This document shows positions 4,192 through 11,293 of a stretch of 47,382 bases of DNA, in pieces (the stretch's first letter is position 1; every line of letters begins with the position of its first letter). Position numbers and translations under genes: made by a program. This stretch comes from an uncultured Methylophilaceae bacterium (lineage in GTDB: Bacteria > Pseudomonadota > Gammaproteobacteria > Burkholderiales > Methylophilaceae): contig CAIPBJ010000111.1 in the NCBI GenBank assembly GCA_903863255.1, positions 1-47,382 of the forward strand. Direction: 5' to 3'. The notes beneath the pieces were generated by a model. That model saw nothing but the letters and a program-made list of their open reading frames with translations, had not been told where the DNA came from and did no database searches.

Positions 4192-5844
<1,653 letters not shown>

Positions 5845-6633
5845 TTATGCGAATATTTTGGCAAGTTCACTTCCGGGATCGGGCTGGCGCATGAACGCCT
5901 CGCCAACTAAAAAAGTATGAACATGATTCCTTCGCATAAGTTGTACATCTTCTTTGGTAAAGATTCCACTCTCAGTCACAACGATTTTATTTTCGGGAAT
6001 TCGATCAAGCAAGCTAAGCGTTACATCAAGTGAAACATTGAAGGTACGAAGGTCTCGATTGTTTATTCCCAATAACGGGGTGTCAAGTTTAAGCGCGTTA
6101 TCAAGCTCATCACTATTATGTATTTCCACGAGTACTGACATCCCAAGTTCATTCGCTATTGATTCAAGTCGAATCATGGTAGAAACGTCAAGTGCAGCTG
6201 CAATAAGCAAGATGCAATCTGCACCCATGGCGCGAGCCTCATAGACCTGATAAGGGTCAATCATGAAATCTTTTCTTAATACGGGCAAATTGCAAGCAGA
6301 ACGTGCTTCCATCAAATATTCACTTGAGCCCTGAAAAAACTGTTTGTCTGTTAGTACAGATAAACAGGCTGCGCCACCATTTTGGTAGCTTACCGCAATC
6401 TCTGCAGGTTTGAAGTCTTGACGAATTATCCCTTTCGAAGGGCTCGCCTTTTTAATTTCTGCAATTACCGCAGCTTTGCCAGCATCTATCTTTGATTGAA
6501 TACCACCTACAAAATTCCGCGTGGGTGGCATGGCCAGAGCCTCTTCCTGGATAACACTAAAGGGCTTGCCAATTAACGAATGCGCTACTTCGGAGGTCTT
6601 TACTTCTAAGATTCTTTTTAAAATATCGGACAT
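5845..6633 (-). CDS. trpC: Indole-3-glycerol phosphate synthase
   Basis: A 262-residue TIM-barrel enzyme that cyclises 1-(2-carboxyphenylamino)-1-deoxyribulose-5-phosphate to indole-3-glycerol phosphate in tryptophan synthesis. Diagnostic motifs are [14 protein letters not shown] (catalytic Lys, about residues 54-67), the strand [20 protein letters not shown], and near the C terminus [12 protein letters not shown] and VTESGIFT. It is a monofunctional TrpC: there is no fused PRA isomerase (TrpF) domain, so trpF must be elsewhere. The gap from trpD is 53 bp, the largest inside the trpEGDC cluster, and the ribosome-binding site is weak. Confidence 0.97.
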
Positions 6634-6686: not shown

Positions 6687-7721
6687 TTAACTTGTAAGGG
6701 GTGTTTCATTGCTTTGAGCAATAAGGTCATTAAGTTTTCTCAAACTCGCACCATTATCAATAACTTTTGCTGCTTTAACGATGCCAGCACCCAGGTTTTC
6801 AGCCAATCCAGAAACATATATTGCTGCCCCGGCGTTCAGCAATACAATATCGCGGGCAGGTACATGTTTTCCGTTCAATACGTCTAGAATCATATTTTTG
6901 GATTCATCTACCGTTTTGACTTGAATATCTTCCAATTTATGAGGGCTTAAGCTAAACATTTCAGGTTTAATTATATATTCATTAACGATGCCGTTTTTTA
7001 GTTCTGCGATGAAAGTCTCACCTGAGAAAGATATTTCATCCATGCCATCTGCACCATGCACAACCAAGACATGAGTGCTGCCTAATTTCTTCAGGACTGA
7101 GGCAAGTTTTGATGTCAGCTTCCTGTCAAAGACTCCCATGATCTGACGTTTTGCATTGGCTGGATTGGTTAAAGGGCCTAATAAGTTAAATATTGTCCTT
7201 ACGCCGAGTTCTTTTCTTACAGGAGCAGCGTGCTTCATTGCGCTATGATGATTCGGAGCAAACATGAAACCAATGCCGATGTCTTCAATACTTTTTGCTA
7301 CTTCATCAGGAGCTTGATTGACGTTCAATCCCAGTTTCTCTAATACATCCGCACTTCCACAGGTTGAAGAAACCGATCGTCCACCATGCTTGGCAACTTT
7401 TGCTCCAGCAGCGGCTGCAACGAAAGCGCAGGCTGTTGAAATATTGAAAGTTTGTATACTGTCGCCCCCAGTTCCGCAGGTATCGATTAGATGAGTATGA
7501 TCTCCAATCTTAACCTTGCTGGAAAGCTCTCTCATAACTTCTGCAGCGGCAGCAATTTCATCAACGGTTTCACCTTTCATGCGAAGGGCAATAGTCAATC
7601 CTGCGATCTGGGCTGATGTTAACTCGCCCCTCATGACTTTTCTCATGATCGAAAGCATGGTGTCATGGTCTAGGTCATTACGATTGAGTATTCTTTCAAG
7701 TGTTTTCTTGAATTCTGGCAT
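6687..7721 (-). CDS. trpD: Anthranilate phosphoribosyltransferase
   Basis: Transfers phosphoribosyl from PRPP to anthranilate. The 344-residue protein shows the family's PRPP/metal motif CGTGGDSIQTFNISTACAFV (about residues 81-100), KHGGRSVSSTCGSADVLEKLG shortly after, and HHSAMKHAAPVRKELGVRTI and NLLGPLTNPAN in the middle. An N-terminal helical domain (about 1-70) handles dimerisation. A GGAAATTAG stretch just before the ATG acts as a ribosome-binding site, 19 bp after trpG. TrpD and TrpG are separate genes here, unlike the fused enterobacterial TrpGD. Confidence 0.97.
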   Translation of the reverse strand: MPEFKKTLERILNRNDLDHDTMLSIMRKVMRGELTSAQIAGLTIALRMKGETVDEIAAAAEVMRELSSKVKIGDHTHLIDTCGTGGDSIQTFNISTACAFVAAAAGAKVAKHGGRSVSSTCGSADVLEKLGLNVNQAPDEVAKSIEDIGIGFMFAPNHHSAMKHAAPVRKELGVRTIFNLLGPLTNPANAKRQIMGVFDRKLTSKLASVLKKLGSTHVLVVHGADGMDEISFSGETFIAELKNGIVNEYIIKPEMFSLSPHKLEDIQVKTVDESKNMILDVLNGKHVPARDIVLLNAGAAIYVSGLAENLGAGIVKAAKVIDNGASLRKLNDLIAQSNETPLTS

Positions 7722-7740: not shown

Positions 7741-8307
7741 TTATTTAGACTTTAAGAAGTTATCCAATAGCTCATGCCCATATTCGGTCAGTATGGATTC
7801 AGGATGAAATTGAACTCCTTCAATTGGCATGCTTTTATGTTTGACACCCATGATTTCATCATCATCTGTCCATGCGGTAATCTCTAAACATTCAGGTATC
7901 GTTGACCGGTCAATGACGAGTGAGTGATACCTCGTAGCAGTATATGGATTAGGAAGGTCTTTAAAAACGCCAATATTTTTATGATAGATTTGAGAAGTTT
8001 TTCCATGCATCAGGCGCTTGGCGTGAATAATTTTTCCACCAAAAGCCTGGCCAATACTTTGGTGGCCAAGGCATACGCCAAGGATTGGAATTTTTCCTGC
8101 AAACTCATGAATCAAAGCTAGCGATATTCCTGCTTCATTTGGCGTGCAAGGGCCTGGGGAAATTACGATTTTATCGGGATTGATCTCCTCGATCTTCTTT
8201 AGATCAATTTGATCGTTTCGAAATACCAAAACTTCTTGACCCAGCTCGCCAAAATATTGAACAAGGTTGTATGTAAAGGAATCATAGTTATCTATCATCA
8301 ATAGCAT
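7741..8307 (-). CDS. trpG: Anthranilate synthase component II (glutamine amidotransferase)
   Basis: Class I glutamine amidotransferase subunit that supplies ammonia to TrpE; in many bacteria the same subunit also serves para-aminobenzoate synthase, and no separate pabA is visible here. Catalytic Cys lies in [15 protein letters not shown] and the His/Glu pair in [15 protein letters not shown] chose the ATG at 8305-8307 (188 residues, starting [14 protein letters not shown]), because an AAGGTGAGG ribosome-binding site sits about 8 bp upstream inside the end of trpE and family proteins begin here. An in-frame GTG at 8317-8319 would add four residues. The start lies 1 bp after the trpE stop, so coupling is likely. 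Confidence 0.96.
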
Positions 8308-8308
8308 A

Positions 8309-9817
8309 TTATGCCTCACCTTCGAACTTTAGATTGTAATCGAGGCCGTCCAGAACCAATTCTGCAGCTCGAATGGCCGCTCTGGCTTTGTTTTGGGTTT
8401 CATCCCACTCGTTTTGAGGTAAGGAGTCAGCAACGATACCAGCTCCAGCTTGTATGTATAAGGTTTGGTTTTTAATCACTGCCGTACGGATGGCAATGGC
8501 CACATCCATGTCTCCATTAAAACTTAAGTATCCAACTGCCCCAGCATAAATCCCACGCTTGGAGGGTTCAAGTTCATCTATGATTTCCATTGCCCTGACT
8601 TTGGGTGCGCCTGAAACAGTACCGGCAGGAAAGGTTGCCTTGATAACATCAATTGCATCCATGCCAGGTTTGAGTTTACCTTCGACATTTGAAACGATAT
8701 GCATTACATGAGAGTAACGTTCGATCACCATATTTTCAGTAACTTTTACAGAACCAATCTGAGCGACTCGACCGACGTCGTTTCTTCCCAAATCCATTAG
8801 TTGAACATGTTCAGCACACTCTTTGGGGTCAGCCAATAGCTCTTCCGCCAATGCATTATCAGTTTCACGGTCCTTTCCTCTTGGTCTGGTTCCTGCGATG
8901 GGTCGTGCGGTAACCGTGTCGCCTTCCAGTCTTACCAGGATTTCTGGAGAGGCACCAACTACAAAATGATCCCCCATGTCGTAATAAAACATATAAGGTG
9001 AGGGGTTCAGGCTTCTATATGCTCTGTATAAGGAAAGAGGCGAAGCGGTGAAAGGCTGAGACATTCTCTGGGAAAGAACAACTTGCATGATGTCACCGTC
9101 AAATATGTACTGCTTGCATTTATCGACGGCTGCTTTGAAATTTGCCTCGCCAAACTCGGATTCAGCCTTTACGGAAGGCATCGCTTTGACTTCTGGAATG
9201 TCAACTGAAACCCTCATTTGCTTTATAAGCGACTCCAGTCTTGATATCGCGTCTTCGTAGGCTTGATCTTCGCTAGGATCCGCATAGACTATAAAGTACA
9301 ATTTTCCAGATAAATTATCTACAACGGCCAGTTCTTCAGAAACCATTAGAAGGATATCGGGTACATTCAGCTTGTCGGTCTTTTTATGATTATTTTTAGC
9401 GAGACGAGGCTCAATATATTTGATGGTCTCGTAACCAAAATAACCGGCCAAGCCTCCTGTAAAACGAGGTAATCCGTTATGACTTGGTGTTTTAAAGCGA
9501 GATATGAATTCTTTAATAAAATCCAAAGGATTCGATTCGGAATTGGATTCGATAATTTTTTGATTCTGAATGACCTGAATCTGATTTCCTTCAACCACTA
9601 TGCGGGTCTTGGCTGGCAAGCCAATGATCGAATAGCGCCCAAAACGTTCACCACCCTGAACGGATTCAAGAAGATAGGAGAAAGGTCTGTTTGCTAGTTT
9701 TAGATAAAGCGATAATGGGGTGTCAAGGTCTGCGAATGTCTCGATAACTAACGGAATGCGATTGAAACCCAGTGATGCAAGATTTTCGAACTCTTTTTTG
9801 TTGATGGTGTAAAACAT
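8309..9817 (-). CDS. trpE: Anthranilate synthase component I
   Basis: Chorismate-binding subunit that makes anthranilate with TrpG, the committed step of tryptophan synthesis. The 502-residue protein has the feedback-site motif [18 protein letters not shown] (about residues 49-66) expected of a Trp-inhibited enzyme, and the catalytic core with [56 protein letters not shown] and [27 protein letters not shown] ribosome-binding site lies 8 bp before the ATG. A 104 bp spacer separates it from gph and contains the trpL leader peptide. Confidence 0.97.
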
Positions 9818-9880
9818 GAAAATATCCTTAAGTCTAAAAGTTTGCCTATAGGCGGCTTATATATTTTTGCGGACTCTAAT
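9818..9880 (-). promoter_or_regulatory. trp leader RNA between trpL and trpE (candidate attenuator)
   Basis: On the minus-strand RNA, the octamer GGUGGCUU, which covers the last two Trp codons of trpL (9891-9884), can pair with AAGCCGCC (9858-9851), with one G-U wobble. The second octamer shares three bases with the palindrome GCCUAUAGGC (9853-9844), so the two structures exclude each other. This is the kind of alternative pairing a ribosome-stalling leader uses. However, I see no GC-rich stem followed by a long U-run before trpE, so a classic intrinsic attenuator is not demonstrated. Control of trpE translation or of Rho access is equally possible. Confidence 0.45.
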
Positions 9881-9919
9881 TCAAAGCCACCATCGCCAAC
9901 TTCTTAACTTCACTTTCAT
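9881..9919 (-). CDS. trpL: trp operon leader peptide, Trp-rich (12 residues)
   Basis: A short reading frame between gph and trpE encodes MKVKLRSWRWWL then TGA: three Trp codons in the last five sense codons, two of them adjacent. The ATG is 2 bp after the gph stop and has an AAGG ribosome-binding site with 7 bp spacing, embedded in the end of gph. Trp is rare, so three codons in twelve directly ahead of trpE is unlikely by chance and matches the logic of trp leader peptides, where uncharged tRNA-Trp stalls the ribosome and switches expression of the structural genes. The peptide itself needs no function. Because it directly follows gph, read-through mRNA from rpe-gph would be sensed too. Confidence 0.75.
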   Translation of the reverse strand: MKVKLRSWRWWL

Positions 9920-9921
9920 GC

Positions 9922-10587
9922 TTATGCCTTCATCAATAATTTAGCAGCTTCGAGTATCGAAGATACTTCACGGTCACTTTTCAATGTCCCTGAGCTTGAA
10001 TTGTAACCATACGGGACTGAAAAAATATAGCTGCCAGCCGATCTGGCAGCTTCAACGTCGGAAATAGAGTCACCTATCATCAAAAGTTCATTGGGCTTGA
10101 TTCCAAACTCTTCACATACTCTGTATAAAGGTAAAGGATCTGGTTTTTTTCTAGGTAAACTATCGCCGGATAATACAATTTCAAAATAGTCGTACAAATT
10201 CATTGCTTTTAATAATGGAATCGTGAATTTCTCTGGTTTGTTCGTAATACATGCCATTCTAAACTTACCGTTCTGCAACAAATCCAATCCATCCCTCACA
10301 CCTGGATACAGCTCTGATTTCAAGTGTAAGACATCTGCATAATTCTCGAAAAAACTACTCATAGCCCTTTTAAGCAAGGCAGCATCTGGTTCGGATTCCA
10401 TTTCTCCAGTAAGCAAGCGTTTCACGAGCTTTTCAGCACCATTGCCGATATAACTCATTACTTGGCTGAGCGAGACAGATGCCATCTGAAGGTCGGACAG
10501 CATTCTATTTGCAGCTTCAGCTAAGTCTGGCGCTGTGTTAAGCAACGTACCATCAAGGTCAATTGCAACCGCTTTTACAGCAATCAT
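9922..10587 (-). CDS. gph: Phosphoglycolate phosphatase (HAD family)
   Basis: Dephosphorylates 2-phosphoglycolate, a by-product of DNA repair and of RuBisCO oxygenation. HAD motif I is IDLDGTLLN (nucleophile Asp10, acid/base Asp12), motif II includes ACITNKP, motif III the Lys of PRKKPDPLPLY, and motif IV GDSISDVEAARSAG. I take the ATG at 10585-10587, giving 221 residues as in the family. An open frame continues upstream to 10674, but that part lies inside rpe and has no homologous look. The start is 7 bp after the rpe stop; the ribosome-binding site is poor, so coupling with rpe is likely. The gene ends 2 bp before trpL. Confidence 0.93.
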   Translation of the reverse strand: MIAVKAVAIDLDGTLLNTAPDLAEAANRMLSDLQMASVSLSQVMSYIGNGAEKLVKRLLTGEMESEPDAALLKRAMSSFFENYADVLHLKSELYPGVRDGLDLLQNGKFRMACITNKPEKFTIPLLKAMNLYDYFEIVLSGDSLPRKKPDPLPLYRVCEEFGIKPNELLMIGDSISDVEAARSAGSYIFSVPYGYNSSSGTLKSDREVSSILEAAKLLMKA

Positions 10588-10594
10588 TAATCGA

Positions 10595-11293
10595 TTACAA
10601 GCTAGCCAAGGAGTCTCTAATCGACTTAACCACCGAGTTATAGCGATTTGGATCCGAGTCTTTGCCAGCACCAAAAATAGCTGACCCAGCTACAAAAGTG
10701 TCGGCTCCTGCTTTTGCAATTTCAGCAATATTGCCAGCATTCACTCCCCCATCCACTTCAAGCCATATTTCGCGACCTGATTTCTCTTTGTAGGCATCAA
10801 TTCTTGCCCTAGCCAGCTTTAATTTTTCTAAAGTACTTGGGATGAATTTCTGCCCACCAAATCCTGGGTTTACAGACATGAGAAGAACCATGTCGATTTT
10901 ATCCATAACAAAATCAAGGTAATCAAGAGGAGTCGCTGGGTTGAAAACCAATCCCGATTTGCATCCATGATCACGAATCAAGGATAAGCTCCTGTCGATA
11001 TGTTCTGAGCCTTCAGGATGAAAAGTAATGATATTGGCGCCTGCTTTTGCAAAATCGGGGATAATACGGTCAACTGGTTTCACCATAAGATGGACATCAA
11101 TGATGGCGTCTGTTACAGGGCGTATTGCTTCGCATACTAAAGGACCAATTGTCAGGTTCGGAACATAATGGTTATCCATCACGTCAAAATGGACTATATC
11201 GGTTCCAGATGCAATCACATCGGTGATCTCTTGACCCAGTTTTGCGAAGTTAGCAGATAAAATACTTGGTGCGATTCTGAATTGTTTAGACAT
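10595..11293 (-). CDS. rpe: Ribulose-phosphate 3-epimerase
   Basis: Interconverts ribulose-5-phosphate and xylulose-5-phosphate in the pentose phosphate or ribulose monophosphate/Calvin pathways. The 232-residue TIM barrel shows the family motifs [55 protein letters not shown] and LEVDGGVN, which carry the metal ligands and catalytic aspartates. It is the first gene of the minus-strand unit rpe-gph-trpL-trpEGDC-hemB. The rpe-gph-trpE order is common in proteobacteria. A 105 bp spacer separates its start from the divergent gene at 11399. Confidence 0.97.

Follow-up and report, generated by a model that had tools for sequence, protein, structure and literature searches.

The textbook example of a switch built on a terminator is the attenuation of tryptophan (Trp) biosynthesis. 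In the attenuators of the erm type, such as ermC and ermB, stalling of a ribosome on the leader open reading frame (ORF) makes the start region of the following gene accessible, and in Bacillus subtilis a TRAP-dependent hairpin blocks the Shine-Dalgarno (SD) sequence of trpE. The 2004 survey of Vitreschak reportedly covered the alpha and gamma groups and not the beta group. The locus described here lies in a stretch of 47,382 nucleotides from an uncultured member of the family Methylophilaceae, order Burkholderiales; this whole stretch is referred to as the window. We propose that a Trp-rich leader before trpE acts by translational attenuation, a mode in which a ribosome stalled at the Trp codons would unlock trpE, and on the modelling presented below we give this reading a probability of about 0.7. 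Compared with the erm type, the proposed signal would be the missing charged tRNA at the codons and not an antibiotic, and the leader ORF and the start region are predicted to pair directly, almost end to end. The TRAP system of B. subtilis likewise has a hairpin closing the trpE start, and differs in using a Trp-binding protein and no leader peptide.

In regard to the classical trp attenuator with its leader trpL, as described in E. coli and in Sinorhizobium (PMC7298713), the locus has in common a short leader with Trp codons directly before trpE and the proposed coupling to Trp supply. It differs from the classical attenuator in that no terminator was found, that the predicted partner of the trpE start region is the leader ORF itself, and that the leader is intergenic and is not known to stand at a 5' end. 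The nearest printed idea that we found is the LEU element before leuA in Actinobacteria, where a predicted stem joins the leucine codons of the leader with the leuA SD (PMC1262725). Pairing of a codon run with an SD is shared between the two, and the LEU element differs in its amino acid, its host group and its pseudoknot, with no Trp codons or CGA pattern described in the available part of that paper. A survey from 2010, as far as its text was available, outlined attenuation through overlap with the ribosome-binding site, sharing the principle that leader genes exert codon-driven control over that site (PMC4833913). Likewise, mgtQ of Salmonella, situated between mgtC and mgtB, is a short intergenic ORF of an operon, the translation of which affects initiation of the gene behind it, and differs in its named elements, which are acidic residues in mgtQ and low magnesium and not Trp codons (PMC8092293). 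For TrpL of Campylobacter, the accessible parts of two papers propose termination as the mode (PMC3847290) and report initiation peaks in Ribo-seq (PMC11955535). The word trpE is absent from the main texts, in the form available, of two surveys of structured bacterial RNAs (PMC8632094, PMC6429828). Among the matches listed for the open-access literature, with subscription papers mostly outside, there was no Trp leader in this family and no leader-peptide control of trpE translation. The principle is therefore known, and what we did not find in the open-access literature is a Trp leader locking trpE translation and its spread through an order.

The leader and its conservation

The original prediction had placed between gph and trpE a peptide, MKVKLRSWRWWL, with three Trp codons, an AAGG ribosome-binding site and an ATG 2 nt after the gph stop. 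Direct reading confirmed each of these features and supplied the strand, which had been left unstated and is the minus strand (Table 1). The ORF encodes 12 residues (codons ATG AAA GTG AAG TTA AGA AGT TGG CGA TGG TGG CTT TGA) and begins just downstream of the gph stop TAA at 9924-9922; 7 nt separate the AAGG from the leader ATG, and 63 nt separate the leader stop from the trpE ATG. The position of the leader inside an rpe-gph-trp-hemB gene order, which the original prediction took for one longer mRNA, is seen in the window, where the genes follow as rpe-gph-leader-trpE-trpG-trpD-trpC-hemB with gaps of 19 nt between trpG and trpD and 53 nt between trpD and trpC, and the order recurs in relatives.

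Table 1. Coordinates of the leader, the predicted hairpin and the neighbouring genes in the window.
Feature	Position	Strand	Basis or remark
Trp-rich leader ORF, MKVKLRSWRWWL and stop	9881..9919	-	direct reading and conservation in the family
AAGG, putative leader ribosome-binding site, within the last gph codons	9927..9930	-	direct reading
TGG CGA TGG TGG	9887..9898	-	Trp codons 9898-9896, 9892-9890, 9889-9887; Arg codon CGA 9895-9893
Lock hairpin, 5' arm (predicted), almost the entire leader ORF including its start codon	9884..9923	-	folding
Lock hairpin, 3' arm (predicted), 29 nt 5' of the trpE SD, the SD and the trpE start codon	9812..9858	-	folding
AAGGA, putative trpE SD, bulged in the predicted hairpin	9825..9829	-	reading and folding
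trpE, proposed regulated gene, 502 aa	8309..9817	-	
gph ORF as listed, TTG start (putative) overlapping rpe; upstream neighbour	9922..10674	-	
rpe	10595..11293	-	
trpG, overlaps the trpE end	7741..8319	-	
trpD	6687..7721	-	
trpC	5845..6633	-	
hemB, 21 nt past trpC	4819..5823	-	context only

A consensus scan limited to sigma-70-type sites found no internal promoter ahead of the leader. Upstream of the leader, positions 10051-10029 of the minus strand hold a terminator-like element, a 9-bp hairpin followed by ATATTTTTTC, which lies within the coding sequence of gph and is oriented with the operon. Among 80 relatives' loci (L031-L110), rpe and not gph was the nearer of the two genes within 260 nt before trpE in 19, so the leader can also directly follow rpe. 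A search for a second leader copy in the same genome gave 31 pattern matches, of which 20 were examined, the window's own leader being among the other 11; the 20 included one short ORF (L258), which overlaps a parB-like gene in a different reading frame and is thus a chance match. Libraries of known families gave no counterpart: Rfam had no match in the window at the gathering score, and for positions 9700-10050 with E up to 10 its single hit, at 14.2 bits, was to a snoRNA family without relation to the locus; eight longer leader peptides from relatives (21-43 aa) had no match in NCBIfam and one in Pfam at 12.7 bits, under the cut-off of 27.

Conservation was assessed with a strict finder that accepts an ATG-started short ORF with W-R-W, WRWW or WR..WR at its C-terminus, within 220 nt before trpE. 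The family sample held 110 loci, reduced to 97 distinct ones by removing 12 duplicates and one locus that was too short; part of it came from the best 80 of 364 relatives, the named ones being mostly Methylophilaceae, and one genome (G022) supplied only a trpE paralogue. A strict Trp-rich leader precedes trpE in 92 of 96 non-redundant family loci, the relatives being partly those best 80 of 364, compared with 0/96 on the reverse strand, 4/4800 dinucleotide shuffles and 0/40 stretches internal to trpE. With a permissive finder, which accepts ATG, GTG or TTG, the leader was present in 95/97 loci, and in the two that it missed (L015 and L100) a short ORF with one Trp codon is visible by eye. The wider sample comprised 130 further loci, taking in 100 of 110 newly matched genomes, and 124 of these loci belong to 48 other families of the order. 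There, the strict finder detected a leader in 55/124 loci and in 24/48 families, with 0/124 on the reverse strand and 8/6200 in shuffles; the remaining 24 families had no leader by this finder. The six further loci of the family itself included two with a leader and four without (L116, G031; L128, G033; L131, G012; L132, G014), the latter being family members with genomes of 1.3-1.4 Mb that stand outside the 97-locus set. In L131, a short inverted repeat was seen by eye immediately before trpE, in place of the leader.

The presence of a Trp-rich leader before trpE is not due to chance. Conserved Trp codons upstream of trpE in relatives, the check suggested for the original prediction, were found as given above (92/96 against 4/4800), with the number and spacing of the Trp codons differing by subgroup (SWRWW, SWRGSWRS, SWRRSWRG). 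A short ORF with clustered Trp codons directly 5' of trpE is what would be expected of trpL in the broad sense, and its conservation supports reading the leader as a probable Trp-codon leader of trpE. The earlier designation as trpL for trpEGDC stands to that extent, as a conserved Trp-codon leader belonging to trpE; its likely output is initiation of trpE translation and not termination of transcription, as no terminator was found between leader and trpE on the operon strand of the window and the leader co-varies with the trpE start region.

The predicted hairpin and the predicted pairing of leader and trpE start

When the window segment 9929-9805 was folded, it gave -36.7 kcal/mol (z -4.04), and none of 200 shuffles was equally stable. 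In the predicted structure, the leader ORF as 5' arm pairs with a 3' arm that includes the trpE start codon, the two start codons would pair with each other as CAUG with CAUG, and the trpE SD, AAGGA, forms a 5-nt bulge. The mean z over 40 family cluster representatives was -3.5, with values below -2 in 32 of them; the same level was reached in 15 of 27 other families, represented by one locus each, and in 2 of 40 control stretches. Furthermore, in 86/95 loci the predicted probability that the leader pairs with the trpE start region (-12..+3) exceeds 0.5. Pairing between a leader and the start of the gene behind it, one mark of a translational attenuator, is indicated by prediction and by co-variation. 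Alignments of six family subgroups yielded only 2 to 7 pairs with two-sided changes each, many of them in the loop hairpin, and in subgroups C and F the alignment recovers little of the long stem. The case is carried by partner permutation and leader swapping and does not rest on the alignment-based covariation, which was weak.

In 95 family loci, the duplex between the leader and its own trpE start had a mean energy of -24.2 kcal/mol, compared with -18.8 kcal/mol for permuted partners, and for the 40 cluster representatives the values were -25.5 and -19.8 kcal/mol; in both sets, none of 20000 permutations matched the own pairs. Outside the family, 67 candidates were reduced to 64, some of them weak, by removing three out of a list of five judged to lie inside gph, and this set gave -30.3 for own and -25.7 kcal/mol for permuted partners, or -31.8 and -27.4 kcal/mol when 27 families were represented by one locus each (0/20000 in both cases). 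The compared stretches overlapped in 6 of the 64 loci because the distance between leader and trpE is below 45 nt; with these dropped, the values were -32.7 and -27.7 kcal/mol for 25 families, again with 0/20000. When the extreme locus L113 was dropped as well, 2 of 20000 permutations reached the own value; the figure was 0/20000 when the terminator families, f4 and f8, were excluded. That extreme locus (genome G050, family f15) has an unbroken helix of about 26 bp between leader and trpE start, with repeats of the CACAGAG type, and possibly represents a repeat element that later came to serve as a lock.

Replacing the native leader by a foreign one raised the mean accessibility of the SD from 0.25 to 0.37 in the family (native lower in 30/40, Wilcoxon p 0.0005) and from 0.29 to 0.38 in the other families (native lower in 21/27, p 0.007), where the p-values, like those below, treat cluster representatives as independent and the accessibility figures use the starts given by the finder, which are internal in some loci (such as L053 and L056). 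The pairing and opening figures were computed with corrected leader starts. Pairing of the trpE start region (-12..+3) to the leader was 0.69 with the native and 0.48 with the swapped leader (33/40, p 2e-7), and pairing of the trpE AUG to the start region of the leader was 0.71 and 0.48, respectively (p 0.001), part of this start-to-start pairing being expected since CAUG is self-complementary.

The energy needed to open the trpE start (-18..+8) averaged 13.3 kcal/mol in the family with the native leader, 7.1 with a foreign leader and 4.5 with the leader removed, and was higher with the native than with the foreign leader in 38/40 representatives. In a ribosome footprint model, which is crude, a footprint at the first Trp codon brought the family mean to 9.3 kcal/mol, below the free state in 38/40 and with a drop of more than 3 kcal/mol in 19/40, and adding another ribosome at the start of the leader, in those loci with enough room, brought it to 6.5 kcal/mol. 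For the window, the cost was 16.8 kcal/mol in the free state, 7.2 with the first-Trp footprint and 9.8 as the mean over the Trp codons. The 27 other families gave 13.9 free, 12.2 with the first-Trp footprint (lower in 20/27) and 8.4 kcal/mol with a queue; the median drop without a queued ribosome was 1.3 kcal/mol, and a drop above 3 kcal/mol occurred in 6/27. Related to this, the mean SD accessibility in the family was 0.24 in the free state, 0.37 under a stall at the first Trp codon and 0.26 under a stall at the last. The window shows the reverse, a decrease from 0.72 to 0.47 under the first-Trp stall, since its SD is bulged out when the hairpin is free. These model values make release of the trpE start by a stalled ribosome plausible, and many genomes would need queued ribosomes or co-transcriptional timing for it. 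What the computation shows of this reading is the ORF with its conservation, the hairpin, the co-variation of leader and trpE start, and the lower opening cost with a footprint.

Terminator, proposed lock and the proposed course of events

An alternative is that the leader, as in E. coli, controls an intrinsic terminator before trpE. Speaking for it are the same kind of leader and the sites found in some relatives: in L225 and L239, both scans show a clear hairpin of terminator type, followed by a T-run, in the interval from leader to trpE, L237 has one before trpE in the loose scan, and L238 and L133 have one by eye, the latter locus also showing an irregular stem in the loose scan. On the operon strand of the window, two scans and a promoter/terminator tool found no intrinsic terminator between leader and trpE; the tool reported a single weak site in this interval, on the opposite strand. 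The long helix of the window ends beyond the trpE start codon, an unexpected place for a terminator. The E. coli trp terminator, used as a positive control, was detected by both scans, yet the strict one flagged just 5/95 family loci, all weakly, and 5/64 outside the family, and in L237 and L238 its hit was a hairpin in the leader, the terminator visible by eye being passed over. With the loose scan, the hits were 4/40 family loci and 28/64 elsewhere, many of these being long irregular stems. In the five terminator-type loci, a set picked partly by eye, the gap between leader and trpE is 80-141 nt, whereas the remaining 59 loci have a median gap of 52 nt. One of them, L238, has a strong duplex between leader and trpE start too, so pairing and terminator can coexist. 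The order seems to hold both outputs, a translational lock and a terminator. In the window the leader is probably not an attenuator of the E. coli type, and we regard classical transcriptional attenuation there as very improbable.

Alternatively, the leader could be translated just to hold the trpE start open or to hand ribosomes on, without any sensing of Trp. In the footprint model, the lock is opened by a ribosome anywhere on the leader and most of all by one that is initiating, and mgtQ-mgtB is a known case of an intergenic short ORF controlling the next gene through hairpins, according to the available part of the source (PMC8092293). Such coupling leaves unexplained why clustered Trp codons should stand before a gene of Trp biosynthesis in 92 of 96 loci, and the 63-nt gap is, by general knowledge, long for re-initiation, which makes coupling without sensing quite improbable. 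It could also be proposed that, in the manner of TnaC, the arrest comes from the nascent S-W-R-W-W responding to a molecule rather than from a lack of charged tRNA-Trp. Short arrest peptides exist, and the length of 12 residues is not decisive in this respect; the Ser before and the Arg between the Trp codons recur as well. The variation in Trp number and spacing among subgroups speaks against this, and arrest at excess Trp would open trpE at high Trp, which is the wrong sign, so that we consider this explanation extremely improbable.

For translational attenuation, we infer the translation of the leader, the stalling, the response to Trp, the order of events and the role of CGA, as follows. 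The lock on the trpE start region would be formed by the RNA of the leader ORF, and undisturbed RNA would form one long hairpin with trpE closed. During transcription, a ribosome would enter the leader before the trpE start emerges. When charged tRNA-Trp is ample, it would finish the leader and depart, and the hairpin would shut. When it stalls at W-R-W-W, it would occupy the leader strand, together with any queued ribosomes, and trpE would be translated. The CGA between the Trp codons may slow the ribosome further. A more specific version, which we hold tentatively and find somewhat doubtful, is a one-shot latch: each mRNA would decide once, according to whether its first ribosome is still paused at W-CGA-W as the trpE start appears, and Trp leaders would be wired either to the latch or to a terminator. 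In such a latch, the start codons of both the leader and trpE are paired in the closed hairpin, so neither could be entered once it is shut.

The Arg codon of W-R-W is CGA in all 22 family representatives that have the motif (21/21 with a narrower pattern), and CGA makes up 4.8% of the Arg codons in the trpE genes of the family representatives. Over all W-R pairs of these leaders, CGA was used in 34/62. Outside the family, it is the W-R-W codon in 34/43, the nine exceptions being three terminator-type leaders of f4 and six loci with no called terminator (L119, L153, L166, L197, L203 and L216). The window genome has 44 tRNA hits, all typed, with the Arg anticodons TCT, CCT, ACG and CCG and no TCG; CGA is therefore probably read solely by inosine wobble. 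Data from a his-leader assay in Salmonella suggest, in the part of the paper available, a slower translation of CGA than of CGU and CGC, subject to effects of context (PMC4046918). A slow CGA beside the sensing codons would lengthen the stall. An AUG in a shifted frame, created by CGA-TGG, was rejected as the main reason for CGA: the overlapping frames end at differing places (by eye), and leaders of the SWRGSWRS type use CGA in their final W-R as well, without an AUG being created there. The A of CGA has a pairing probability below 0.3 in 6 of the 22 representatives (0.28 in the window) and a mean of 0.72, a variation which indicates that structure may contribute and does not account for every case.

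Operon context and meaning

The recurring gene order is rpe-(gph)-trpE, often followed by trpG-D-C-hemB. Among the 65 loci that extend 5 kb or more beyond the trpE start, hemB lies no more than 400 nt after trpC in 47. Of the 18 without hemB, 13 are in the leader set and three are exact duplicates of leader loci (L043, L075, L101), the remaining two being L080, too short to judge, and L100, with its one-Trp ORF. Since the leader is present in 16 of these 18 loci, it goes with trpE and not with hemB. The link from Trp supply to heme synthesis through hemB, which had been drawn originally, comes down to conserved gene order and was not supported. Locking the translation of trpE need not affect hemB, and could reach it only via polarity or mRNA decay. 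In this regard, Rho might act in addition to the lock by ending untranslated mRNA, which would affect the rest of the operon, including hemB. Polarity is a general consequence of untranslated mRNA, and hemB follows trpC in the 47 of 65 loci given above; we consider such an addition rather unlikely.

If the proposed translational attenuation is true, many members of one proteobacterial order control trpE through a translation lock built from the leader gene itself, and the CGA kept next to the sensing codons is a possible second sensor element. Some relatives would have kept the terminator, which would make the evolution of attenuation outputs testable, and leaders wired to latch or terminator within one order, if true, would represent a natural series on how the output of attenuation changes. 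Finally, methylotrophs used in the laboratory would gain a defined control point for tryptophan.
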